Shown here one piece after another: positions 31,901 to 36,041 of a stretch of 64,000 nucleotides of DNA; the first letter of the stretch is position 1, and every line of letters begins with the position of its first letter. Origin of the DNA: Cellvibrio zantedeschiae (lineage in GTDB: Bacteria; Pseudomonadota; Gammaproteobacteria; Pseudomonadales; Cellvibrionaceae). The stretch covers positions 744,001 through 808,000 of the forward strand of contig NZ_BMYZ01000001.1 in the NCBI RefSeq assembly GCF_014652535.1, written 5' to 3'. A program made the position numbers and the translations under genes. The notes beneath the pieces were generated by a model. It did not search any database. It worked only from the letters and a program-made list of their open reading frames with translations, and was not told where the DNA came from.

Positions 31901-32947
31901 GGTGTAGATGCATGGCTGGAAACGCAAGTGGATAATTATTATCGCTTCAATATTAAAGTGGTGGATGACAAAGGCAAAGTGATTGCCAGTGGTCGAGACT
32001 TGTCGCCACTGCGCGAAAAATACCGCGCGCAGGTGCAACAAAATATTCAATCGGCGGCGACGAACATCGAGCGCGATAATATTACCCAGTGGGATTTTGA
32101 ATCCTTGCCGCAAGCCATTCAATTGCAACGCAATGGGATTGGTATTCGCGCTTATCCTGCATTGGTTGATAAAACGAGTTCTGTTGCCTTGCAAGTTTTG
32201 GATAATCCACAACAAGCTTTGGAGTTGACGCAGCGCGGTCTTGCGCGCTTGATGCATCTCCAGCTCAACCAAACTGTAAAATATTTGCAAAAGGAATTAT
32301 TGAAAGGGCAAGAGATCGCTTTGACACTTGCAGGTATAGGCTCTCGGGATCAAGTCTCTGACGATATTATTCTAGCTGCGATTAAGCAATTAGCATTGCG
32401 TGATACCTTGCAATTGCCGCGCACTAAAGCAGAATTTGACGAAAGGTTAACTTCAATCAAAGATAAGTTAGTTGCAGCGGCAGAAGATATTAGCTCGCAT
32501 TTACTTGCAAGTTTGAAGCTGTTGGTTGATGTAAAGAAAACGATTAAGCAACAAAAAAATGCTTTGGCTCTTGCGTTCGCGCTCAGTGATATTCAGGAAC
32601 AACTTAAACATTTGTTTTATCCCGGTTTGGTTTATAAAACGCCGGATGAATGGTTGCGCCAGTACTCTCGTTATTTACGTGCAATTCAATTGCGCTTGGA
32701 AAAAGCTGCACTTAATCCACAAAAAGATAAATTAACTTTGCTGGAAATCCAACCTTATTGGCAGCGCTTGCAAGAGTATATTGAAAAAGAAGGCGCGTTT
32801 GTAATGACGCAGAATGCAGCTCTAATGGAATACCGGTGGTGGATTGAAGAGTTGCGGGTGAGTTTATTTGCGCAGACCTTAAAAACCCAGATTCCTATTT
32901 CGCCCAAACGTTTGGATAAGCAGTGGGAATTGGTGCTGGAAAAATAG
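28988..32947 (+). CDS. hrpA: ATP-dependent RNA helicase HrpA
   Basis: 1319 aa DEAH-box helicase. Motif I GETGSGKTTQIPK, Ia TQPRRIAA, II DEAH, III SATI, V/VI TNVAETSITVPG and QRKGRCGRV are all present in the first 430 residues. Helicase-associated and OB regions and the long HrpA-specific C terminus follow. HrpA is implicated in mRNA processing and rescue of stalled ribosomes. The ATG at 28988 is chosen because AAAGGTGAG lies upstream; the frame opens nine bases earlier at GTG. A -10-like TATTAT followed by GCGCACC is at 28954-28966. Confidence 0.95.
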   Translation: MAGEWLEYKQSVDNVMAQDHYKLLRRLGELEKLARAQKPYELALEKWQQQLLLSKAKVENRKLLIPTSIHFPDLPVCEKREEIAQIIANNQVVVLAGETGSGKTTQIPKICLTLGRGARGLIGHTQPRRIAANTVATRIAEELHTKLGEKVGYQVRFSDQSSEQTLIKVMTDGILLAEIQNDPYLNKYDTLIIDEAHERSLNIDFLLGYLKQLLPRRPDLKLIITSATIDLEKFSQHFNNAPIIEVSGRTYPVDVWYRPLFESQAKDDESEDTEQDIYSAMVDAVHEIELHEKTGGGPRGGDILIFLSGEREIREAADALRKAQFAHMEVVPFYARLSLAEQQRVFAPHTGRRIVLATNVAETSITVPGIRYVIDPGFARISRYSYRTKVQRLPIEPVSQASANQRKGRCGRVAEGICIRLYSEEDFNNRPAFTDAEILRTNLAAVILQMLQLKMGDIHKFPFIDAPDHRLISDGYKLLEELQAVNTKNQLTSVGTQLSKLPLDPRLARMLLAAQEQSCVRELLIIASALSVQDPRERPVEKQQAADQSHRRFWAEFSDFAGFVNLWDYFETQRQELSQNQLRKLCKKEFLNYMRLREWRDIHHQLCVAIKDLGFKANTIPAGYDPVHKALLSGLLGNLGFNHEEREYLGARNRKFSIFPGSSLIKKTPKWIMAAELIETSKLFAHTVAKIEPEWALAAAEHLVKRQYFEPHYNSHSGQVMAYEKVSLYGLTLIEKKSVIYSHIDPAICREVFIRAAFVEGQYAENPKRKNMQRKGAVNDFFEHQQALLKELDDLEAKSRRRDILADEQVIFEFYNEVIPEQIINLAGFENWRKKAEQENPKVLFISREALMRHGALDITQAQFPNELEWRGMVFPLTYHFEPSHPDDGVSIHVPMSVLHQLPEQRLEWLVPGMLRDKCINLVKSLPKSLRKHFVPVPDVVDKALAAMSPDNKPLTDALGLQLKRQTGVDVGVDAWLETQVDNYYRFNIKVVDDKGKVIASGRDLSPLREKYRAQVQQNIQSAATNIERDNITQWDFESLPQAIQLQRNGIGIRAYPALVDKTSSVALQVLDNPQQALELTQRGLARLMHLQLNQTVKYLQKELLKGQEIALTLAGIGSRDQVSDDIILAAIKQLALRDTLQLPRTKAEFDERLTSIKDKLVAAAEDISSHLLASLKLLVDVKKTIKQQKNALALAFALSDIQEQLKHLFYPGLVYKTPDEWLRQYSRYLRAIQLRLEKAALNPQKDKLTLLEIQPYWQRLQEYIEKEGAFVMTQNAALMEYRWWIEELRVSLFAQTLKTQIPISPKRLDKQWELVLEK

Positions 32948-32965
32948 TTTATTGGTAAGCACTTT

Positions 32966-32990
32966 TTGCTTTGCTTTGCTTTGCTTTGCT
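32966..32990. repeat. (TTGCT)5 short tandem repeat
   Basis: Five perfect copies of TTGCT, 18 bases after the hrpA stop codon. This is a slippage-prone microsatellite outside any coding region. Confidence 0.9.
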
Positions 32991-33013
32991 TTTGATTTAA
33001 ACATCCCATGCAA

Positions 33014-33200
33014 GCTCCCCGAGCACTGGAAGAAAATGACTGGCAAACGCACAGGAAGTGCGTTTGAGTGACTACGCGGCATGGATGCCGCGTCGGAACG
33101 ACGGTCATTTTCTGAGGTGCGGAGGATACAGGAGCGAGACGGGTGTCTTTTTTTGCTTACTTTTTTGGACAAGCAAAAAAGTGAGGCCTGCGGCAGGCGT
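33014..33200 (+). repeat. Structured repeat element, copy 1 (forward)
   Basis: Copy 1 of a roughly 190-base element. An outer stem AGAAAATGAC (33031-33040) / GTCATTTTCT (33104-33113) encloses two hairpins. The first is AAACGCAC-AGGAA-GTGCGTTT (33045-33065); the second is CGCGGCAT-GG-ATGCCGCG (33075-33092). Two more hairpins follow: CTTACTTTTTT / AAAAAAGTGAG (33156-33185) and GCCTG-CGG-CAGGC (33186-33198). The same order occurs inverted in copy 2. Confidence 0.85.
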
Positions 33201-33249
33201 TCGTACTTTAATTTTTATGAATAAATTGATTTTTAGAGAAATTTTGTTT

Positions 33250-33440
33250 CGCCTGCTGGCGAGTCACTTTTCTTTGTCTCGCCAAAGAAAAGTAACCCAA
33301 AGAAAGGCGACCCCAACTCACGCCTGTTTCCTGCGCTTCTCGAAAAATAGCTGTCGTTCCGACGCGACATCCATGTCGCGTAGTCACTCAAGCGCACTTC
33401 CTGTGCGCTTGCCACCTATTTTTCTGCGATGCTCGGGGCG
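33250..33440 (-). repeat. Structured repeat element, copy 2 (inverted)
   Basis: Reverse-strand copy of the element at 33014-33200, separated from it by about 49 AT-rich bases. Outer stem GAAAAATAG (33342-33350) / CTATTTTTC (33416-33424). Inner hairpins use CGCGACAT/ATGTCGCG (33363-33380) and AAGCGCAC/GTGCGCTT (33390-33410). The distal hairpins are at 33263-33296 and 33250-33261. Stem bases differ from copy 1 in compensatory pairs, while loops and linkers such as TCGGAACGAC and GAGTGACTA are unchanged. Confidence 0.85.
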
Positions 33441-33482
33441 TTCAAATGGGGACCCCACTGGTGCCACATTTGAGTTTGGTAT

Positions 33483-34280
33483 TTATCTTTGTTCAGCGGT
33501 AAGGATTTTGGTGATCACATTCCCTAAAATCCATTGCTGCAAATATTGCGCTGCTTGCATGGGAACTTGTTCCTCATCAAACCACTCACACAATCCCTCA
33601 CATACTTCTGCAAAATTCTTTCCTTCCAGAAATGCTTGCAAGGCCCAAGCTTCAGTTTGTTGTAATGGCCGGTAGACAACACGTAAATCATCTCGCCAAA
33701 TTAACCAGGCATTGGCTTCACTCATTATTTCCGGTTCAACTGTATTTTCTTCATTGATTAACGAACTCCATAATGCGGGAGCATTGCTGTAGAAGTTTAA
33801 TAGTTGTGCCGATTCGTGAAACTTTAATTGCATTGTCATCCATGCATCCGGGGCGAGCGCTCGTACATCGTCCAGCGTGGAAGTAGGCTCATCGGCTGCA
33901 TCAAATGCCATGGTTTGAGCCCATTCGAAGGCTGCAATTTCTGCAATTGGGATTTTGGTTTTCCAGATTGTATGAGTGCTTAAAAATTCTGCCAGCTTTT
34001 CTCCTAACCAACGCAGCGACGGATGATGCGACGGATATGCTGTAATAAATTCATTGGCGATAGCGAGAAAATCATCTTCGCCAACAAATGCTTCAAGCGC
34101 AGTGTAATCATTACGCAGCGCATCAATTAACCGCAACCTGTAGGCGTGATGATAAATTCCCAGGCGTTCTTGTCTTGAGAACGCTGGCGTCTCCAGTGTT
34201 AGATCCGCTGCGTGTTGCGTTTTATCGAGCACGAAATCTTGTAGCGCAGATTGCAGTTCTGCCAGGCTTTTTGTTTTCAT
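33483..34280 (-). CDS. bufC: DUF2063 bufferin/HvfC-type RiPP partner protein
   Basis: 265 aa. The N-terminal DUF2063 domain (about residues 8-100) begins LAELQSALQDFVLDKTQHAA and includes RLGIYHHAYRLRLIDALRNDY, the family signature. The C-terminal half is variable and helical. Members partner MNIO (DUF692) enzymes in RiPP maturation, probably in binding and presenting the precursor; the older label putative DNA-binding protein is not supported here. Last gene of the bufA-bufB-DoxX-bufC operon, starting three bases after the DoxX stop. Its 3' side abuts the inverted repeat element. Confidence 0.85.
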   Translation of the reverse strand: MKTKSLAELQSALQDFVLDKTQHAADLTLETPAFSRQERLGIYHHAYRLRLIDALRNDYTALEAFVGEDDFLAIANEFITAYPSHHPSLRWLGEKLAEFLSTHTIWKTKIPIAEIAAFEWAQTMAFDAADEPTSTLDDVRALAPDAWMTMQLKFHESAQLLNFYSNAPALWSSLINEENTVEPEIMSEANAWLIWRDDLRVVYRPLQQTEAWALQAFLEGKNFAEVCEGLCEWFDEEQVPMQAAQYLQQWILGNVITKILTAEQR

Positions 34281-34283
34281 GAA

Positions 34284-34736
34284 TTATTTGCGCGTGAGTA
34301 AGTGGTCAAGCGAAACTTTACCGGGGCCTGCGATTGCCAACCAGAAAAATATCGCGAAGTAAGCCGTTTCGGAAAATCCAAGCAGTGTATCCAGAGAGTC
34401 TACATCTTCCCAGAGCGCGCTTTTTATCGCCACAATCATGATTACCCCGAGAATGCCGCCAGAAATTCTCGTAAAGAGCCCCAGGATAATCAATATACCG
34501 CATACAAATTCTGCGCCGGAGGTAAATGGCGTGAGTATATGTGGGAAGGGAATTCCCCAGCTGATAAAGTTTTCGGTAATGGCTTCCAGGTTTTGCAGTT
34601 TACCCCAGCCGGCGGTAATAAATATTTCGCCTACCACCAAACGAGCCACCAAGGGACCAAGCCACTGAATATAAGCTGCTACGCTTTCTGGCCAACGGAG
34701 TGTGATATTGATAAATGAATTCCAGATATTGGTCAT
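34284..34736 (-). CDS. DoxX-family membrane protein of the bufferin operon
   Basis: 150 aa with four membrane segments and the DoxX signature region VARLVVGEIFITAGWGKLQN (about residues 29-48). FVCGILIILGLFTRISGGIL and the C-terminal FFWLAIAGPGKVSLD are typical. DoxX genes often accompany bufferin/HvfA clusters; the role there is uncertain, possibly redox or export related. It lies between the DUF692 and DUF2063 genes with small gaps, so it is co-transcribed. Confidence 0.85.
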   Translation of the reverse strand: MTNIWNSFINITLRWPESVAAYIQWLGPLVARLVVGEIFITAGWGKLQNLEAITENFISWGIPFPHILTPFTSGAEFVCGILIILGLFTRISGGILGVIMIVAIKSALWEDVDSLDTLLGFSETAYFAIFFWLAIAGPGKVSLDHLLTRK

Positions 34737-34762
34737 GGGGCATCCTTAAACCTTTTAGTTAG

Positions 34763-35626
34763 TTAACAAATATGTTGATGGTGATTATTTTCAGATAAAA
34801 CATCTGCATAAATACTGCGAGCCTTTTCCAACTCTTTGAGGAGGGTATTGAGCGGTGGAATATCATCATCGCGCTCAATCATTGTGCTGATATGGCCAAA
34901 ACGACGGACGCTTTCGGCGTAGAGTTCCCACACCGAATCGATAATTTCATGATCATGTGTGTCAATGCTGTAGTCGCCCTTATTTAAATGTCCAGCTAAA
35001 TGAATTTGCTGGATGCGCTCGGCAGGAATTGCATCTAAATAAGTTAGCGGATCAAAATTATGATTGTGTGCGCTTACATGAATGTTGTTGATATCGAGAA
35101 GGATCAAGCAATCTGCTTCTTTTGCTAAAGCGCTTAAAAATTCCCATTCCGAAATGGTTGAGTGCTGGAAGGTTAAATAGCTCGATACGTTTTCCAATAA
35201 AATACGTTGCCCTAAAAATTCTTGTACTTGTGTAATTCTTGCGACTAAATGTTTGAGTGCCTCTTCGGTGTAGGGCAAAGGCATTAGGTCATGGAGGTTA
35301 ATGCCTTGGGTACCCGTCCAGCACAAATGATCTGAAATCCATTTAGGTTTTACGCGTTGGGCGAGTTTTTTTAATTCCGCCAGGTAGTTATTATTCAGTG
35401 GATCAACACTGCCAATCGATAATGAAACACCGTGCATCACAACAGGATAGCGCTCACAAATTTGGTCCAGATAATGGAGCGGTTTACCACCCGCAACCAT
35501 GTAGTTTTCGCTGAGTATTTCCAACCAATCTACATTGTGATCATGCTCAATAAGGTCGGTGTAATGCTCGCTACGCAAGCCAAGCCCGAAGCCTAGATGA
35601 GGTTGTAGTTGCGAGTGAGTTGCCAT
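34763..35626 (-). CDS. bufB: MNIO enzyme (DUF692), bufferin-modifying
   Basis: 287-aa TIM-barrel multinuclear non-heme iron oxidative enzyme. Motifs: LGFGLGLRSEHYTDLIEH, WLEILSENYMV, SDHLCWTG, ILLENVSSYL, LLDINNIHVSAHNH, IHLAGHLNKG and THDHEI, which supply the His/Asp/Glu iron ligands. Family enzymes modify cysteines in a precursor peptide, for example to thiooxazole or oxazolone-thioamide groups. Its likely substrate is the Cys-rich peptide encoded 88 bases upstream. The protein is cytosolic. Confidence 0.92.
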   Translation of the reverse strand: MATHSQLQPHLGFGLGLRSEHYTDLIEHDHNVDWLEILSENYMVAGGKPLHYLDQICERYPVVMHGVSLSIGSVDPLNNNYLAELKKLAQRVKPKWISDHLCWTGTQGINLHDLMPLPYTEEALKHLVARITQVQEFLGQRILLENVSSYLTFQHSTISEWEFLSALAKEADCLILLDINNIHVSAHNHNFDPLTYLDAIPAERIQQIHLAGHLNKGDYSIDTHDHEIIDSVWELYAESVRRFGHISTMIERDDDIPPLNTLLKELEKARSIYADVLSENNHHQHIC

Positions 35627-35714
35627 GGAATTGCCTGAAAATATTTATCGATTAACTTTAATAAAGGCTGCGTAGTAACAACACTTACGCAGCCCTTGCG
35701 AAGATCACAACAAA

Positions 35715-35969
35715 TTATTTCATTTCTTTGCCGCCTTTAGCGGCGCAATCTTTAGCTGTAGTTTCAGTAAAGCCTTTACCTTTACAAGCGTTTTGGCCTT
35801 TACAAGCATTGGTTGCAGTTTTGCAAGCAGAGTGACCTTTACAGGCATTAGCACCGCTGCACTTAACGGTGCCTTCGCTTGCAGCAGGCTTATCGTCTGC
35901 GAATGCCATACCAGTTGAGAATAAAGCTGCAGTAGCCAATACGAGAGCAGAAGTAGTCATTGTTTTCAT
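35715..35969 (-). CDS. bufA: BufA2-like bufferin precursor (Cys-rich periplasmic RiPP metallophore)
   Basis: 84 aa from the ATG at 35969; the open frame continues to 36038 but lacks a signal peptide start. Sec signal peptide with cleavage after MAFA (residue 24). The mature peptide has six cysteines (37, 43, 49, 56, 62, 75), with three CKG repeats in the pattern CxGxNACKGxxxC...[14 protein letters not shown]. This fits the BufA2 family, whose modified cysteines bind copper or related metals in the periplasm. First gene of the operon with the MNIO, DoxX and DUF2063 genes. Confidence 0.88.
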
Positions 35970-36026
35970 TTCAGTAAATCTCCATTCATTGATATTTAGG
36001 TGGTAGTAGGTTGAGGGAATAATACT

Positions 36027-36041
36027 GAGTTGCCTCAACTC
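36027..36041. promoter_or_regulatory. 6-3-6 palindrome in the bufA leader
   Basis: GAGTTG-CCT-CAACTC, perfect 6-bp arms, about 58 bases upstream of the bufA start and just downstream of the candidate promoter. It could be an operator or an RNA hairpin. Confidence 0.45.

Follow-up and report, generated by a model that had tools for sequence, protein, structure and literature searches.

Two facing copies of a structured repeat of about 190 nt lie between hrpA and a bufferin operon in the window (the whole 64,000-nt stretch of Cellvibrio zantedeschiae DNA that was analysed), and they belong to a family dispersed over the genome. The structure of the repeat and its assignment to the TwoAYGGAY class are well supported. 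The most likely reading, which judging from sequence we hold at about even odds, is that the hairpins of this dispersed RNA repeat would dock CsrA and that its scattered copies would titrate this protein.

The gene hrpA is encoded on the + strand and stops at 32947 (NCBIfam TIGR01967 match). The bufferin operon is convergent to it; its nearest gene, ending at 33483, was HvfC-like with a score below the cut-off of the HvfC model, and BufB (NF050167) was next. This bufferin-type operon (33483-36038) comprised the MNIO maturase BufB and a small Cys-containing precursor-like ORF at 35715-36038. A first-pass annotation had described two elements of roughly 190 bases facing each other across this gap, and this was borne out (Table 1). 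It had placed them correctly, with ends slightly too short and an AT-rich spacer of 49 instead of 48 bases. The inverted arms, 33005-33143 and 33312-33450, were 78% complementary. Both copies were found to adopt the same fold, as had been proposed, with -88.2 kcal/mol for copy 1 (z -6.2) and -85.9 kcal/mol for copy 2 (z -6.0), and 0/200 shuffles were equally stable in either case. The paired stem differences reported between the copies were confirmed, and both copies have the same AGGAA and ATGGAT loops. The ORFs listed over the copies (e.g., 33058-33675) were taken as chance because they cross hairpins. A match to plant MIR2646 (50.7 against a gathering score of 245) was likewise taken as chance.

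Table 1. Positions in the window of the two repeat copies, their parts and adjoining motifs
Feature	Position	Strand	Remark
Copy 1 of repeat, outermost stem P1 to terminal hairpin	33005..33198	+	in 3' region of hrpA
Copy 1 stem P1, 5' strand CCCATGCAAGCTCC	33005..33018	+	cognate-pairing energies
Copy 1 stem P1, 3' strand GGAGCGAGACGGG	33131..33143	+	cognate-pairing energies
Copy 1 core	33031..33113	+	stem P2 encloses both GGA-loop hairpins; centre of TwoAYGGAY match
Copy 1 stem P2	33031-33040 / 33104-33113	+	
Copy 1 hairpin 1	33044..33066	+	pentaloop AGGAA 33053-33057 (A-GGA-X, cf. CsrB repeats, RsmZ SL3/SL4)
Copy 1 hairpin 2	33074..33093	+	hexaloop ATGGAT 33081-33086 (ANGGAX, high-affinity RsmE type)
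Copy 1 putative 3' pseudoknot	33145..33185	+	
Copy 1 pseudoknot S1a GTC	33145-33147	+	
Copy 1 pseudoknot pyrimidine linker L1	33148-33155	+	
Copy 1 pseudoknot S2a	33156-33167	+	
Copy 1 pseudoknot S2b	33174-33185	+	
Copy 1 pseudoknot S1b GAC, in loop	33168-33170	+	
Copy 1 terminal hairpin, Y-type 3' end GCCTGCGGCAGGC	33186..33198	+	
AT-rich spacer between copies	33199..33246	.	
Copy 2 of repeat, X-type 3' end (CTCGCC..GGCGAAA)	33247..33450	-	3' of bufferin-operon gene ending at 33483
Copy 2 hairpin 1 pentaloop AGGAA	33398..33402	-	
Copy 2 hairpin 2 hexaloop ATGGAT	33369..33374	-	
Copy 2 putative 3' pseudoknot hairpin (S2)	33263..33296	-	
T-rich (GCTTT)n tract upstream of copy 1	32963..32999	+	tandem TTTGC at 32965-32987, after hrpA stop
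TGGCACC motif upstream of copy 2	33460..33466	-	

BLAST yielded 31 matches to the repeat in this genome, and R1, a covariance model built from 31 copies of the same genome, yielded 33. To the 31-copy alignment we applied the consensus structure of that same alignment (32 pairs, 992 paired cells), and standard pairs occupied 98.6% of the cells. Changes on both sides were seen at 23 of the 32 pairs compared to a shuffled mean of 11.8, with 0/500 shuffles reaching 23, and pairing fell to 37-50% of cells when the partners were slid. One of five measures, the number of further standard pair types, demonstrated no excess (38 vs. 36.3 in shuffles, 131/500 of which reached 38). Another alignment comprised 29 copies from this genome and its relatives; it had been fitted to the model and has copies in common with the 31-copy alignment. 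It also gave 98.6% paired, and 18 pairs had changed on both sides. The repeat is neither unique to this locus nor marked by non-compensating stem changes.

Loci shared between species allowed 16 comparisons, eight of which joined the same copy in two species (identity rank 1 or 2). Sixteen pairs differed in these eight: seven changed on both sides, six on one side with the pair kept, and three were broken, one of them perhaps through a shift in the alignment; a standard pair was kept in 13/16. All 16 comparisons together gave 63 both-sided changes, eight one-sided changes with the pair kept, and 13 broken pairs. The selection on structure that had been proposed from the two copies is supported both by covariation with shuffled and slid controls and by these same-copy changes between species. 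On the strand bearing GGA, G·U occupied 14 cells at 10 pairs, compared to two cells at two pairs for A·C (31 copies); the GGA-bearing strand is therefore probably the one that folds.

Stem P1 and a 3' pseudoknot, both predicted from sequence, extend the fold given in the first-pass annotation. In P1, a CCC-containing 5' end pairs with the segment preceding GGG. Cognate P1 strands gave a mean pairing energy of -14.6 kcal/mol vs. -9.6 kcal/mol with the partners of other copies (41/43 copies usable; 0/10000 permutations, kinship uncorrected). On the 3' side of P1, the 3-4 nt that follow GGGT are complementary to the loop of the hairpin behind them, giving a putative H-type pseudoknot. With anchors fixed beforehand, an uninterrupted run of three or more Watson-Crick pairs was present in 25 of 28 usable copies vs. 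37% of non-cognate combinations, and the preference for the own partner was equalled in 0/10000 permutations (kinship uncorrected); 15/43 copies had been dropped because they had no 10-pair hairpin within 60 nt, many of them through nested inserts. An earlier version of the test left 13/69 modules unassigned and dropped 14 of the remaining 56, chiefly on the basis of a list made by hand. Since partners were picked by match in that version, it was biased, and the anchored test was relied on instead.

The pseudoknot linker, in many copies TTTCTTTT, lies in parallel orientation to the hairpin strand AAAGAAAA. Against this purine strand the parallel match was better in 17 of 38 distinct cases, equal in 18 and worse in three, and in both orientations the match exceeded that of shuffled linkers. 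These data are no more than suggestive of a pyrimidine triple helix that the linker could form with the pseudoknot hairpin. The intrastrand triplex repeats treated by Holder et al. (2015, PMC4666352) are similar in being dispersed, intergenic, possibly triplex-forming and variable in their loci, with no strand bias reported in the passages of that paper that describe them. TM_ECO, as characterized there, is a G/C-rich, purine-motif DNA triplex, whereas the possible third strand of the present repeat is a pyrimidine linker within a pseudoknot.

Paired stem changes might also arise by template-switch correction of imperfect DNA palindromes, with no selection on RNA. Quasipalindrome correction is a known mutational route, and template switching, like recombination, could underlie the apparent in-place inversions described below, but the crossing pairs of the pseudoknot covary, the intermediates are G·U and not A·C, and GGA is kept in the second hairpin loop of 31/31 copies. 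We consider this origin very improbable. As to the choice between RNA and a REP/MITE type of single-stranded DNA, which had been offered as alternatives, RNA fits better given the ratio of G·U to A·C, the covarying pseudoknot and a match to an Rfam RNA family, and the REP type was not supported.

That match is to TwoAYGGAY (RF01731) and covers the core of the repeat. Its gathering score of 43 bits was passed by five of nine scored copies in the genome (best 54.2) and also by the copy at locus L009 (44.4), and the window copies scored just below it with 42.9 and 40.5. Two GGA-loop hairpins inside one enclosing stem, with sister copies above the gathering cut-off, link the repeat to this class. 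It differs from TwoAYGGAY in that the first loop is usually a pentaloop, the unit is a multi-copy dispersed repeat, the outermost stem covaries, and the Rfam match does not extend to the 3' pseudoknot domain. Weinberg et al. (2010, PMC2864571) described TwoAYGGAY as probably an RNA, with occurrences in human gut, gamma-Proteobacteria and Clostridiales, and CsrA binding was predicted for it by Gardner and Eldai (PMC4333381); in the relevant parts of these publications, those found on the class, its function is so far predicted only. Among the papers listed by our literature search, we found no account of TwoAYGGAY as a dispersed repeat, nor of CsrA-binding dispersed repeats. A multi-copy, covarying TwoAYGGAY repeat with an extra 3' domain offers dozens of natural variants in a single genome for the CsrA idea.

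RF01731 matches were present in 18 of 274 genomes of the taxonomic class, including this one, and 14 of these genomes exceeded the cut-off; with at most nine candidates scored per genome, seven of these genomes had seven or more matches. None of 14 control genomes had an RF01731 match. A pseudoknot-type hairpin followed the core, outside the Rfam match, in at least 10 of the 17 other genomes (by eye), and loop conservation among such distant matches is partly built into the Rfam model used to find them. The search with R1 detected the repeat in 8/57 genomes including this one, with 33, 11, 15, 12, 1, 11, 1 and 2 matches, counted under stricter filters and with some genomes incomplete. No R1 match was obtained in 16 of 20 congeners. 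An exact pattern search of a contig collection returned 15 stretches, every one of them from a MAG with the label Cellvibrionaceae or Gammaproteobacteria.

The loops were compared with the RsmE recognition rule A(N)GGAX, under which, in the account given in PMC4005645, hexaloops are strong and N-less pentaloops weaker. The second hairpin loop was A-N-GGA-T in 28 copies and A-N-GGA-A in one (N being T, A, G or C), which gives A-N-GGA-T/A in 29/31, and A-GGA-C in the other two; GGA was present in 31/31. The first hairpin, usually a pentaloop, was A-GGA-A/C/T in 27 copies, ACGAC in two, CGGAC in one and AAGAA in one, with GGA in 28/31, absent from 3/31, and X free; ACGAC also recurs in other genomes. 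The rule was followed by 31/31 second hairpins and 27/31 first hairpins. As set out in the sections of PMC7652899 and PMC5027483 that concern CsrB, its repeat is CAGGA(U/A/C)G. The loops thus resemble those of CsrB and RsmZ (CAGGA(U/A/C)G and ANGGAX), as does the mix of hexaloop and pentaloop, known from RsmZ SL2 and SL3/SL4. CsrB and RsmZ are dedicated sRNAs with several sites per molecule, whereas the repeat has few putative sites per copy in about 33 copies. Most CsrA SELEX ligands have four or fewer contiguous stem pairs (PMC7652899 / PMC5027483, passages on SELEX), and the stems of the repeat are longer than those of most such ligands.

In the proposed mechanism, repeat copies would be transcribed along with neighbouring 3' regions, and the strong-type hexaloop and the weak-type pentaloop hairpin of one RNA would jointly hold a CsrA/RsmA dimer, while the pseudoknotted 3' part may steady the RNA. 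Copies on abundant transcripts would serve as scattered docking sites and add to the CsrA-titrating capacity of the cell, and the repeats would spread as non-autonomous elements. If CsrA docking is true, repeat expansion would be linked to the setting of a global regulator. CsrA has two genes in this genome and a match in 55/57 genomes. As 16 of 20 congeners gave no match to the repeat although nearly all have CsrA, the repeat is not essential to the Csr system.

Some copies were seen by eye to carry inserts, for which there are two sites: ahead of GGAAACAGG and within the 3' hairpin loop. The first of two insert families, with a unit of about 47 nt, had 13 matches in the genome and matches in 6/16 other genomes searched, and it contains CTGC-ATGGAT-GCAG and a CAGGAG hairpin. 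This 47-nt repeat (CATGGATG and CAGGAG hairpins) occupied the same spot, after GCGCA or CACA, in L024, L028, L029, L019 and L017; its host copies differ in their core, and L024 carries it in the 3' hairpin loop as well. The other family, of about 76 nt, had 21 matches in the genome, of which some are partial; G011, a congener in which R1 matched nothing, has 16. AGGANN and A[TG]GGA[TCA] loops on stems with paired changes were read in 10 of 12 fetched loci by a script that sought GGA-type loops, and the other two gave no such reading. The 76-nt repeat was observed at L026:3470-3545 and L190-L201, and it is dispersed also in congeners without R1 matches, e.g., G011. The three GGA-loop families were judged by eye to be unrelated; if they are, the paired GGA loops in all of them would be the strongest new pointer to a GGA-binding protein.

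The repeat may instead be a selfish, MITE-like non-autonomous element with a folded DNA or RNA strand that is read by a mobilising enzyme, its likeness to CsrA sites being incidental and without regulatory effect. We hold this possible, on the unlikely side. GGA-loop pairs in two further families are not predicted by incidental resemblance, but the patchy distribution among species agrees with such an element, as does the turnover of sites. The gene hrpA was found in 21/21 genomes of the genus, and among 12 loci inspected by eye, four relatives (G017, G020, G005 and G006) had the same convergent neighbour but no repeat pair in the gap. The earlier remark that the placement may be chance is therefore justified with regard to the identity of the neighbouring genes. 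A second site was filled in G003 and G005 and empty in this genome, again as a MITE-like element would predict; at the one filled/empty site aligned, no target duplication was readable, the flanks being too diverged to fix the ends. When 39 relatives' loci were compared with 23 own loci, nine own loci had an occupied matching gap in a relative, some with the same copy (core identity 0.91-0.97) and others with a different copy, the latter also in keeping with mobility.

Two repeat blocks look inverted in place between collinear flanks, which likewise suits a MITE-like element. The clear case is L020:2953-3310 compared to L167, with 221 nt inverted at 91% identity, flanks direct at 87-88%, and a core identity of 0.97. 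The convergent pair at L009:3424-3899 compared to L169 (inverted match of 86% over 483 nt; identities of the two cores 0.92 and 0.81) is weaker because a palindromic pair also aligns directly, at lower identity. A palindrome, CTGGATCCCCGC..GATGACG, lay near 7/31 copies (flanks of L010, L020, L021, L022 and L026) and seems to have been carried along with the inverted block in L020/L167. CTGGAT..GATGACG was rejected as a terminal repeat of the element, being near only 7/31 copies and in mixed positions.

A mobilising enzyme linked to the repeat, as a MITE-like origin would have it, was sought among REP-associated transposases, which the first-pass annotation had pointed to. A Y1_Tnp gene was present in 8/8 carrier genomes vs. 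7/11 non-carriers (19 genomes searched), yet no copy lay nearby: R1 at E <= 1 matched none of 12 loci, 10 around Y1_Tnp genes and two around csrA. The Y1_Tnp loci came from all eight carriers plus G004 and G007, with the second Y1_Tnp gene of G023 and G025 left out; in G023, G025 and G051, which are diverged, the sensitivity of R1 is lower. This genome has a single REP-associated tyrosine transposase gene (NF047646; L171:2765-3295), and no R1 match occurred in the 6 kb of sequence retrieved around this gene. It is flanked by short inverted repeats in which GTACGAT or ATCGTAC occurs. A REP/RAYT origin is not supported by position, as 0/10 Y1_Tnp regions contained a copy. A reverse transcriptase was rejected as mobiliser, with no RVT_1 match in 6/8 carriers, this genome among them (G000, G005, G017, G020, G023 and G051), and one match each in G003 and G025. 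Plasmid and phage collections gave no blastn match to 177 bases of copy 1 at E 1e-5.

The repeat is like REP/REPIN sequences in being intergenic, multi-copy and hairpin-forming, in occurring as singlets and inverted pairs, and in the presence of a Y1_Tnp gene in all eight carriers. It differs in its length of about 190 nt with a pseudoknot, which is outside the 20-40 nt given for REP palindromes in the part of PMC4666352 that deals with them, in the lack of any copy in the 10 Y1_Tnp regions, and in that the repeat flanking the Y1_Tnp gene of G017 is of another, GTAG type. Should CsrA not bind, what these data describe is a large structured repeat that appears to be mobile and for which no mobilising enzyme is known.

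The position of copies relative to genes was taken from mechanical ORF calls. Between codirectional genes, 13/31 copies were sense and 11/31 antisense; seven of 31 lay between convergent genes, and divergent gene pairs were avoided (0/31). With 13 sense and 11 antisense, not every copy can be sense in the mRNA of its neighbour, and a strict orientation in 3' UTRs was rejected; the same lack of a clear sense bias speaks for a MITE-like element. A sense upstream gene was present for 20 copies, and for 12 of these the distance from its stop to the start of the copy is 34-49 nt. This spacing, the absence between divergent and presence between convergent genes, and the 3' pseudoknot would each agree with a REP/BIME-like 3'-end element in which stems and pseudoknot would give transcripts stability or set their limits at gene ends, CsrA being irrelevant. 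Avoidance of promoters is, however, also expected of harmless insertions, and the GGA loops are left unexplained. By eye, no T-run followed the 3' hairpin in the copies, which is therefore not a standard intrinsic terminator. We consider a 3'-end role of this kind improbable.

A wider form of the CsrA-docking proposal is that several separate repeat families converged on a CsrA-binding hairpin pair and together would constitute a scattered, growing and invertible CsrA reservoir, the RNA of the 190-nt family being protected by its pseudoknot triple helix. Sequence comparison leaves this doubtful in our view. If it were true, the spread of repeats would re-tune a global regulator, and copy numbers from 0 to 33 among congeners would amount to regulatory differences between species.

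Upstream of the repeat, TGGCAC occurred within 60 nt in 15/31 copies. A sigma-54 promoter in the TGGCACC motif was considered against the consensus and dropped, since the spacing was variable by eye. T-rich GCTTTT tracts, like the one that precedes copy 1, were also seen by eye upstream of several other repeat copies.
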